This document shows positions 15,949 through 18,128 of a stretch of DNA of 48,252 bases, piece after piece (positions within the stretch are counted from its first letter, which is position 1; every line of letters begins with the position of its first letter). Both the position numbers and the translations under genes were made by a program. This DNA is from Fidelibacterota bacterium (GTDB lineage Bacteria > Pseudomonadota > Alphaproteobacteria > Rhodospirillales > Rhodospirillaceae), in assembly GCA_947476065.1 (NCBI GenBank), contig CANJPG010000019.1, positions 1-48,252 of the forward strand, read 5' to 3'. The notes below the pieces were generated by a model. The model saw nothing but the letters and a program-made list of their open reading frames with translations, made no database searches and had not been told where the DNA came from.

Positions 15949-16905
15949 ATGCATTTTCTCGATTTTGAAAAGCCGATCGCCGAACTCGAAGGCAAGATCA
16001 CCGAGCTCAAGCACCTGTCCGACAGCGACGGCCTCAACATCGCCGAGGAGGTCAGCCGCCTGCAGATCCAGGTCGACCGGAACCTGCGTTCGGCCTACGG
16101 CAAACTGAGCCCCTGGCAGAAGGCGCAAGTCGCCCGCCACCCTGACCGGCCGCACGCCCTCGACTACATCAAGGCGCTGATCGAAGATTTCATGCCGCTG
16201 GCCGGCGACCGCCTGTTCGGCGAAGACTCCGCCATCGTCGGCGGCCTCGGCCGCTTCAAGGGGCGCTCAGTGATGGTCATCGGCATCGAAAAAGGCCGCG
16301 ACACCGAAACCCGCATCAAACACTCGTTCGGCATGGCGCGCCCGGAAGGCTACCGCAAGGCGCGGCGCCTGATGGAACTGGCCGACAAGTTCGGCATTCC
16401 CGTGGTCACCCTCGTCGATACCGCCGGCGCTTATCCCGGCGTCGATGCCGAAGAGCGCGGCCAGGCCGAAGCCATCGCGCGCTGCATCGAAACCTGCCTC
16501 AACATCCGCGTGCCGCTGATCTCCCTAATCATCGGCGAAGGCGGATCGGGCGGCGCTATTGCACTGGCCACCGGCAATGTCGTGCTGATGCTGGAGCATT
16601 CCGTCTATTCCGTCATCTCACCCGAAGGCTGCGCCTCGATCCTGTGGCGCGACGGCAAAGAAGCCAGCGTCGCCGCCGCAGCTTTGAAGATCACTGCCCA
16701 GGACCTTGAGCGCCTCGGCGTCATTGACGGCATCATCCCCGAGCCCATCGGCGGCGCCCACCGCGCGCCGCAAACCATCTTCAAGGCCGTCGGCGATACG
16801 CTGGAGATGCACTTGGGCCAGCTGGCCCGCGTCGAAGCCGCCCAACTGCGCTTCCGCAGGCGCGACAAATTTCTGCAGATGGGACGCCAGGGACTGTCCG
16901 TTTAG
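15949..16905 (+). CDS. accA: Acetyl-CoA carboxylase carboxyltransferase subunit alpha
   Basis: AccA and AccD form the carboxyltransferase that moves CO2 from biotin to acetyl-CoA, giving malonyl-CoA for fatty acid synthesis. The start ATG 15949 gives 318 aa, the standard length, beginning [17 protein letters not shown]. Family landmarks are [15 protein letters not shown], the [19 protein letters not shown] segment, [10 protein letters not shown] and the oxyanion/[10 protein letters not shown] region. An in-frame extension to 15859 lacks similarity and would run through the palindrome. The asd leader ORF begins about 40 nt after its stop, so part of the asd transcription may come from accA read-through. 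Confidence 0.97.
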
Positions 16906-16945
16906 GACTTTACTTCCCGTCGCCGGCCGCTGTATGAACCCGCCC

Positions 16946-17023
16946 ATGAACCTCGCCACCAAAACCACCGCCATTATTAAAACGACCACCAAGATCGGTG
17001 GGGCGGCGAGGGTGTGCGCGTAA
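16946..17023 (+). CDS. Putative Thr/Ile/Lys-rich leader peptide of asd
   Basis: This is a 25-codon ORF between accA and asd, with a second in-frame ATG at 16934 that would add four residues. Codons 5-17 (16958-16996) read TKTTAIIKTTTKI: six Thr, three Lys, three Ile and one Ala. Thr, Lys and Ile are all products of the aspartate pathway that passes through Asd, whose gene follows 91 nt after the stop. Leader peptides such as thrL use the same logic. A Shine-Dalgarno site is not obvious, which is the main weakness. The codon run sits directly before mutually exclusive hairpins. Confidence 0.7.
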   Translation: MNLATKTTAIIKTTTKIGGAARVCA

Positions 17024-17080
17024 AACAAACGTGAGGTAAGCAAACTCTCAAGGCCCCACCAACCGGATGGGGCCTTTGTT
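16986..17080 (+). promoter_or_regulatory. Attenuator of asd: pause, antiterminator and terminator hairpins
   Basis: Three competing pairings are visible. CCACC (16986-16990) can pair with GGTGG (16997-17001) inside the leader ORF. GGTGGGGC (16997-17004) is exactly complementary to GCCCCACC (17053-17060), forming an 8-bp antiterminator. GCCCCA within that same downstream segment is the 5' arm of the terminator (17050-17058 with 17068-17076). A ribosome stalled on the first Thr/Lys/Ile codons would cover CCACC and leave GGTGGGGC free, favouring readthrough into asd. A ribosome reaching the stop codon at 17021 would favour termination. Confidence 0.7.
17050..17080 (+). terminator. Intrinsic terminator in the asd leader
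   Basis: AAGGCCCCA (17050-17058) pairs perfectly with TGGGGCCTT (17068-17076), followed by TGTTAT. The 9-bp stem ends 39 nt before asd, too close to be only the accA terminator without also controlling asd. Confidence 0.8.
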
Positions 17081-17114
17081 ATATGGGCGCCCACCCCCAA
17101 CAGGAGAAGCGTCT

Positions 17115-18128
17115 ATGCCGTCCCCATCCCCGAAGACCGTCGCCATCGTCGGCGCCACCGGCGCTGTCGGTATCGAGTTCCTGCGCTGCCTGACCGCGCG
17201 CAACTTCCCGGTCAAGGAATTGCGCCTGCTGGCCTCGGCACGTTCGGCCGGGAAGGAGATAGCGTTCAAGGAGCAGACTCTGCGCGTGCAGGAACTGACC
17301 GAAGACAGTTTCAAGGGCGTCGATATTGCGCTGTTCTCGGCTGGCAGCGGCATCGCCAAAAAGTTTGCGCCCGCCGCCATAAAGGCCGGCGCGGCGGTGG
17401 TCGATAATTCATCGGCCTTCCGCATGGATGCCGATGTGCCGCTGGTCGTGCCGGAGATCAACGCCGGCGAGATCAAGCGCCACAAAGGCATCATCGCCAA
17501 TCCGAACTGTTCGGCGATCATATCCATCACGCCGCTATGGCCGATCCACAAGATCAATCCCATCCGCCACATGAATATCGCGACCTATCAGGCCGCGTCG
17601 GGGGCAGGTGCTGCCGCCATGGAAGAGCTGGTGGAATCGACGCGGGCCTCGCTCGAGAACCGCGCATACGAACCGAAGGTGTTGCCGCACCCTTACGCCT
17701 TCAATCTGTTCAGCCACAACGCCGACATCGACCCGGCGACGGGCTACAACGGCGAGGAAAGTAAAGTCATCCAGGAGACCCGCAAGATTTTCGGCGACCC
17801 TGATGTGCGCATTTCGATCACCTGCGTGCGCGTGCCGGTGCTGCGCGCCCATGCCGTGGCCGTCACCTTCACCTGCGAGCGGCCCATCACCGAGCAGGAG
17901 GTCCGCACCATCGTCGCCAAGGCCCCGGGCGTGCGCCTGGTGGACGACCGCGCGCGCAATTATTTCCCGATGCCGCGCGATGCCTCGGGCCAGGACGACA
18001 TTCTTGTGGGCCGCATCCGCCAGGATATCGGCGACCCGTCGGGCCACAGCATCTCGCTGTTTTCCGCCGGCGATCAGTTGCTGAAGGGCGCTGCGCTGAA
18101 CGCAGTACAGATCGCGGAGTATCTCTAG
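17115..18128 (+). CDS. asd: Aspartate-semialdehyde dehydrogenase
   Basis: Asd reduces L-aspartyl-4-phosphate to aspartate semialdehyde with NADPH, the branch point for Lys/diaminopimelate, Thr, Ile and Met. The 337-aa protein shows the dinucleotide motif GATGAVG (13-19), the catalytic C132 in NPNCSAI and H246 in LRAHAVAV. ATG 17115 is preceded by AGGAGA. The upstream leader ORF rich in Thr, Ile and Lys codons and the terminator at 17050-17080 suggest attenuation control. It is followed convergently by pgk with a 20-nt gap. Confidence 0.97.
   Translation: MPSPSPKTVAIVGATGAVGIEFLRCLTARNFPVKELRLLASARSAGKEIAFKEQTLRVQELTEDSFKGVDIALFSAGSGIAKKFAPAAIKAGAAVVDNSSAFRMDADVPLVVPEINAGEIKRHKGIIANPNCSAIISITPLWPIHKINPIRHMNIATYQAASGAGAAAMEELVESTRASLENRAYEPKVLPHPYAFNLFSHNADIDPATGYNGEESKVIQETRKIFGDPDVRISITCVRVPVLRAHAVAVTFTCERPITEQEVRTIVAKAPGVRLVDDRARNYFPMPRDASGQDDILVGRIRQDIGDPSGHSISLFSAGDQLLKGAALNAVQIAEYL

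Follow-up and report, generated by a model that had tools for sequence, protein, structure and literature searches.

Between accA (15949-16905) and asd, the 48,252-nucleotide stretch of DNA analysed here (the window) carries a short open reading frame (ORF) followed by a hairpin, which raises the question of whether asd is controlled through translation of this ORF. The biosynthetic routes to lysine, threonine, methionine and isoleucine branch at aspartate-semialdehyde dehydrogenase (Asd). An earlier note on the window had proposed a leader-peptide attenuator of asd. Our analysis supports this proposal through a conserved Thr/Lys run and through two exclusive and compensating pairings, the antiterminator 2:3 and the terminator hairpin 3:4. 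We consider it very likely that the asd leader is a ribosome-mediated attenuator; this rests on observations of the codons and the alternative pairings, of their conservation, of the spacing of the promoter and of the association with asd.

Sequence and translation confirm that 12 of 13 consecutive codons in the ORF specify Thr, Lys or Ile. The run at 16958-16996 reads T K T T A I I K T T T K I and is followed by the residues GGAARVCA, with segment 2 inside the ORF. Of the 74,745 stop-free 13-codon windows that the 48-kb stretch contains in six frames, it scores highest, and only four others contain at least ten T/K/I codons, all overlapping the leader run. A short ORF rich in codons for products of the pathway, as in ribosome-mediated (leader-peptide) attenuators, is present at this site (Table 1).

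Table 1 Features of the asd leader region in the window
Feature	Coordinates	Strand	Basis
Probable sigma-70 promoter of the leader	16909-16938	+	Score 8.7
Leader peptide ORF, MNLATKTTAIIKTTTKIGGAARVCA	16946-17023	+	Read from sequence, translated; Thr/Lys run conserved in 49 asd leaders
Sensor codons (Thr 6, Lys 3, Ile 3 of 13)	16958-16996	+	Sequence; folding model
Segment 2, 3' part of the leader ORF, 5' antiterminator strand	16996-17018	+	Duplex with segment 3
Segment 3, 3' antiterminator strand, holds the terminator 5' arm (17050-17058)	17039-17061	+	Duplex, hairpin
Terminator hairpin 3:4 and U-rich tail	17050-17084	+	Perfect stem, compensation
Shine-Dalgarno sequence AGGAG of asd	17102-17106	+	Sequence; not convincingly sequestered in the window genome
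asd, aspartate-semialdehyde dehydrogenase, regulated gene	17115-18128	+	NF011456 and TIGR01296 above cut-offs

Related loci were gathered by a protein search with the window's Asd and by whole-genome searches. After removal of duplicates, 49 distinct regions upstream of asd contain an ATG-started ORF with a Thr/Lys run and then a hairpin. The leader rule was at least five T/K in ten residues; L124 (four in ten) was retained by hand, L100 and L103, with short Thr/Lys ORFs before the common type of asd, were excluded, and the apparently degenerate leader L043 lies outside the count. Representatives were taken at <75% identity (38 leaders) and at <65% identity (19 leaders). The protein search gave 80 loci, some with little upstream sequence, and 21 of them have the leader; most of the other 59 are titled non-alphaproteobacterial, and titles of metagenome-assembled genomes (MAGs) can be unreliable. 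In the class-wide sample, 28 of 385 genomes encode a window-type Asd at E ≤ 1e-100: the leader is found in 19 (including L124), is absent upstream of the window-type asd in eight (L113-L115, L127, L157-L159, L161), and one (L164) is not assessable. The leader looks to have been lost, or to be absent, lineage by lineage. In relatives with the hairpin the Thr/Lys run is retained as well; a hairpin kept without the run was the outcome that the earlier note had named as speaking against its proposal. Two loci whose Asd is 82-84% identical to that of the window (L002, L003) carry Marinimicrobia titles, and some MAG titles look unreliable. Several of the genomes whose asd locus lacks the leader come from the same families (f75, f79).

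The probable promoter of the leader consists of TTTACT at 16909-16914, an 18-nt spacer and TATGAA at 16933-16938, which ends 7 nt before the leader ATG. Promoters of the TTTACA/TTGACG type score at least 8 in 30 of the 38 representatives, versus 5.7% of base-shuffled copies. In all 30 of these good-promoter representatives the first in-frame ATG after the -10 element lies 6-10 nt from it, a distance found for the leader ATG as first chosen in 23 of the 38. Six of the remaining eight representatives have a spacing of 7-8 nt via a weaker promoter, and L005 and L047 do not. With this spacing transcription would be expected to start at the ATG, so the leader transcript is probably leaderless, judging from its sequence. 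We agree with the earlier note that the leader ORF has no clear Shine-Dalgarno sequence, which would be expected of a leaderless transcript. The start at 16946 is preferred over the in-frame ATG at 16934, because the latter lies inside the probable -10 element.

The terminator stem AAGGCCCCA/TGGGGCCTT (17050-17058 and 17068-17076) is a perfect 9-bp helix, and GGTGGGGC (16997-17004) is the exact reverse complement of GCCCCACC (17053-17060), both as previously described. The antiterminator is longer than had been noted, with most of the ORF after the run (16996-17018) pairing with 17039-17061. The window's 2:3 duplex has an energy of -32.6 kcal/mol, which 0 of 100 shuffles reach; across the leaders, 2:3 pairing is better than that of dinucleotide shuffles at p<0.05 in 46 of 49, with the hairpin arms of L057, L162 and L166 set by hand for this comparison. 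When partners were swapped between leaders and the shared core excluded, a segment paired better with its own partner than with those of others, with z -7.7 for the 38 representatives and z -6.1 for the 19 at <65% identity (0 of 5000 permutations in each case), although the relatedness of the leaders inflates such permutation tests. Partner swapping replaced column-based covariation for the outer antiterminator. Column by column, 63% of the 2:3 cells are paired, the covariation score is reached by 2 of 500 shuffles and the number of pair types by 139 of 500; this weak signal arises, in our opinion, because bulges shift the register. For hairpin 3:4, the 13 double-change cells and the covariation score are each reached by 0 of 500 shuffles; the number of doubly changed pairs is reached by 118 of 500. 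The pairings that the earlier note had called mutually exclusive are indeed exclusive and compensate across relatives: two such hairpins are conserved, with modest column-wise support for 2:3.

An intrinsic terminator precedes the structural gene, its stem leading into the U-rich tail TTTGTTATAT at 17075-17084; the window's U-tract is imperfect, with five T in eight. A simple terminator scan with a loop limit of 8 did not list this hairpin, probably because its loop of 9 exceeds the limit. Folding of the complete 217-nt region shows no unusual stability (z -1.32, matched by 23 of 200 shuffles). No Rfam family reaches its gathering score in the window or in eight related loci. Six sub-threshold matches fall within 16900-17130, the best being RsmY (14.8 bits, cut-off 57); Phe_leader scores 14.4 bits (cut-off 55). 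A regulatory RNA already in Rfam, Thr_leader (RF00506) or another, was rejected as there is no match at the curated score.

In a folding model, the position of the ribosome decides which hairpin forms. The model assumes that the ribosome covers 13 nt from the first base of the A site and places it codon by codon. Before segment 4 exists, the predicted antiterminator probability averages 0.91 over the 38 leaders when the ribosome is placed at T/K codons, and 0.00 when it is placed at the stop codon; 37 of the leaders have at least one T/K codon with a probability of at least 0.5. For the window the model gives 0.91 at Ile 16994 and 0.01 at Gly 16997: the antiterminator can form wherever in the run the A site is placed, and is lost only at Gly 16997, so masking by late codons, which had been supposed, need not occur. 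When the full-length RNA is folded at equilibrium, only 20 of the 38 leaders have a T/K codon at which the terminator loses, and in the window it is disfavoured only with the A site at 16976-16984 (Ile, Lys, Thr); the full sensing range would therefore rely on co-transcriptional folding. With no ribosome, the antiterminator has a mean probability of 0.73. The value for the window is 0.24, and upstream sequence there competes for segment 2. The mean suggests that in other lineages readthrough would be frequent on untranslated RNA.

From these features we infer that the leader is translated, that ribosomes stall in it, and that termination responds to amino acids. Transcription would start at or adjoining the AUG at 16946. 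When charged Thr-tRNA or Lys-tRNA is scarce, the ribosome would stall in 16958-16996, leaving segment 2 free to pair with the emerging segment 3, so that no terminator forms and asd is transcribed. When Thr and Lys are both plentiful, the ribosome would reach the stop codon and cover segment 2; the hairpin at 17050-17076 could then form and transcription would stop.

The strength of the U-tract varies among the leaders. No more than two T are found in the 8 nt after the hairpin in 18 of the 49 (L044, L047-L050, L052, L053, L055, L089, L119, L121, L123, L125, L126, L162, L163, L165 and L166); in these weak-U leaders the following segment is often able to pair with the Shine-Dalgarno sequence of asd. 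It is plausible that in such lineages the asd ribosome-binding site may be hidden instead of transcription being terminated. Control could even be mainly translational, with the exclusive hairpins 2:3, 3:4, 4:5 and 5:6 freeing or hiding the asd Shine-Dalgarno sequence on stalling and no termination taking place, a reading that we regard as improbable. Own 5:6 partners do beat swapped ones in the group with at most two T (11 representatives, z -4.3, 1 of 5000 permutations; six representatives at <65% identity, z -2.7, 25 of 5000), and the group with at least five T shows no such preference (z -0.9). A weaker U-tract also goes with a stronger 4:5 pairing (rho 0.40, p 0.013, n=38; rho 0.66, p 0.002, n=19), but this correlation is non-significant after allowing for the distance to asd (r 0.25, p 0.13), and own 4:5 partners are weakly preferred in either group (z -2.0 with at most two T, z -2.2 with at least five). 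Against shuffles, p<0.05 is reached in only 16 of 49 leaders for 4:5 and 10 of 49 for 5:6. The window itself has a U-rich tail, and its 4:5 and 5:6 pairings (p 0.30 and p 0.41 versus shuffles) are no better than chance, which makes termination the likelier output there.

Attenuation of transcription at a terminator has well-known counterparts. The classical attenuator of the thr operon in gammaproteobacteria (RF00506) controls thrABC and combines codons for pathway products, in this case Thr and Ile, with exclusive antiterminator and terminator hairpins. The window leader shares the pathway-product codons and the exclusive hairpins, and differs in its asd target, its Thr/Lys codons and its probably leaderless transcript. 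The trpL attenuator (rnTrpL/peTrpL) of Sinorhizobium meliloti, also an alphaproteobacterium, is described as having a leaderless ORF that begins at the first AUG of the transcript, as the window leader probably has; as described, it carries Trp codons and controls trpE(G). The precedent of peTrpL, again as described, makes it conceivable that the leader peptide would act in trans after its release. We consider such an additional role very unlikely; it would in any case be compatible with attenuation and would not exclude it. An attenuation role is also proposed for an ilv leader and for a small ORF before trpS in Caulobacter (PMC4117421), likewise alphaproteobacterial systems with other genes and amino acids.

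The closest precedent is SEP5 of S. meliloti, described as a translated small ORF with six Thr and three Lys codons (Ribo-seq, Western blot), as possibly a leader peptide in the 5'-UTR of a gene named aspartate dehydrogenase, and as 'conserved only in Sinorhizobium' (PMC10117765). An ORF ending with six Thr and three Lys lies before the annotated asd of S. meliloti (L227:2205-2375) and, matched by that description, is very probably SEP5. Going by the same description, SEP5 and the window leader are alike in being small ORFs with a Thr/Lys run. The asd of L227 is 42% identical to the window's and belongs to a different Asd group, and its run is the last part of a longer ORF, adjoining the stop codon; this SEP5-type layout is not found in the window. 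Among the literature matches listed, there is no alphaproteobacterial asd attenuator beyond the SEP5 suggestion, although Vitreschak 2004 and Lopatovskaya 2010, on amino-acid and aminoacyl-tRNA operons, may cover it. The element is not restricted to the lineage of the window, and SEP5 is a related ORF for which a leader role had already been put forward.

The residues encoded by the sensor codons of the 38 representatives are 44% Thr and 20-21% Lys, together 321 of 505; each makes up about 4.5% of the window's Asd, and Thr accounts for 2% and 1% in the other two frames of the sensor region. Isoleucine contributes 29 of the 505 residues (5.7%) versus 8.6% in Asd itself, and the three-amino-acid Thr/Lys/Ile sensor suggested in the earlier note is therefore not general. 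In the eight representatives from the window's genus, Ile is more frequent than elsewhere (14 of 114 versus 15 of 391; Fisher p 0.002), as it is in the six closest representatives versus the rest (14 of 87 versus 15 of 418). All 14 same-genus Ile residues fall in five of the eight, with none in L003, L091 and L098. If real, Ile sensing would be an addition within part of the window's genus. As a two-amino-acid (Thr, Lys) switch, the element provides one way to explain small ORFs with Thr/Lys runs such as SEP5.

A covariance model built from the 38 asd leaders only was run on the 385 genomes of the class and on 73 genomes of the family. The class yielded 49 matches at E ≤ 1e-5, of which 23 lie before asd, 12 before thrS (threonine--tRNA ligase) and nine before other or unidentified genes; the remaining five (G520, G234, G572, G252 and G160) were left out of this sorting. 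From both searches together, 17 thrS leaders were obtained (L289, L237, L240, L269, L291, L243, L245, L295, L248, L271, L251, L272, L252, L254, L256, L301 and L299), three of them in the window's genus (L289, L291, L269). The genes of L289, L237 and L299 match TIGR00418 above cut-off, L254 has the synthetase core and anticodon-binding domains, and the other 13 assignments rest on shared N-terminal sequence. Most of these thrS genes encode about 400 residues, L299 being a long form, and in L289 and L254 Pfam sees only the synthetase core and the anticodon-binding domain. The thrS leaders resemble the window leader in layout, hairpin and Thr run, and differ in having almost no Lys codons. Their 2:3 pairing is better than that of shuffles at p<0.05 in 15 of 17. 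Thr makes up 45% of their sensor residues versus 44% in the asd leaders, and Lys 3.5% versus 20-21% (p 3e-8); 11 of the 17 contain no Lys at all, versus 1 of the 38 asd leaders. Codon identity thus tracks the gene, and the asd/thrS pair serves as a natural control in which codon content follows gene function.

These comparisons bear on whether the run is read by ribosomes at all. ACN, AAR and ATN codons all start with A, and the run could in principle be an untranslated, A/C-rich and unstructured spacer, with some other signal, a protein or a metabolite, switching the hairpins. Position 1 of the codons is nevertheless the least and position 3 the most variable (1659, 2759 and 3314 pairwise differences at positions 1, 2 and 3), while a noncoding control is flat (3001, 2970 and 2806). 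The near absence of Thr from the other frames and of Lys codons from the thrS leaders, together with the lack of any Rfam family at gathering score, also argues against a spacer, which we judge to be highly improbable.

The reading of the hairpin as a mere transcription terminator of accA beside a chance run of codons is rejected: the hairpin does lie 3' of accA in the window, but accA is directly upstream of the asd leader in only 5 of 37 assessable representatives, the run is both the extreme of all stop-free windows and conserved with asd, and a probable promoter separates it from accA. The element accordingly belongs to asd rather than to its neighbour.

When 18 Asd proteins were compared in pairs, they fell into four groups, with 59-85% identity within and 40-50% between them: that of the window, that of L129, L244 and L128, that of L303, L305 and L098, and the common alphaproteobacterial type, which includes L082 and L227. 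Leaders of the window layout precede members of the first three groups. The window genome contains a second, common-type asd copy (G000, contig C89:1900-2892; L082) that is about 45% identical to the first and has no leader by the rule of at least five T/K in ten residues. In L098 (G002), from the window's genus, the gene behind the leader encodes an Asd of a different group with 41% identity to the window's; L258 (G012), of the same genus, has the leader on a contig that stops short of the gene. Of 60 regions upstream of common-type asd genes, chosen by hand from a longer list, nine contain a Thr/Lys run of at least seven in ten (L171, L183, L185, L187, L197, L202, L211, L214 and L221), compared with 0 of 60 antisense controls and 0 of 600 shuffles. 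In these common-type leaders the run is at or near the end of the ORF, and terminator-like hairpins follow most of them, as judged by eye.

The mechanism, ribosome-mediated attenuation, is known, and the case for it here is well supported. What appears to be new is the asd target, the conserved sensing of Thr plus Lys, to which Ile is added locally, the probably leaderless transcript and the membership of a set shared with thrS. More tentatively, the leaders may form one modular family of alphaproteobacterial leaderless attenuators, placed before three mutually distant asd groups and before thrS, and perhaps also before genes for GNAT, ABC-transporter and DUF1127 proteins. Retuning would have affected the codon run alone, to Thr and Lys before asd, to Thr before thrS and with Ile added near the window's species, and in some lineages the output would have switched from termination to a hidden ribosome-binding site. 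If this were so, one RNA layout would have been re-tuned for several genes, and the evolution of attenuators would be directly traceable.

Further matches with the same hairpin lie before GNAT genes (L247, L290 and L298 by Pfam, L296 below cut-offs), an ABC transporter (L257; L297 is ABC-like by eye and further downstream), DUF1127 genes (L302, L304), a PNPOx-like gene (L273) and an unidentified gene (L300). These genes have no obvious link to Thr or Lys, and the short ORFs before them are without a long Thr/Lys run. A hairpin of the same type also occurs in L292-L294 and L274, before what appears by eye to be a small lipoprotein-like gene (no NCBIfam match for that of L292), and in L287, which lies in the window's own genome (C3:26336-26425). 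Among these five, a short ORF by the rule is present only in L292, L294 and L274.
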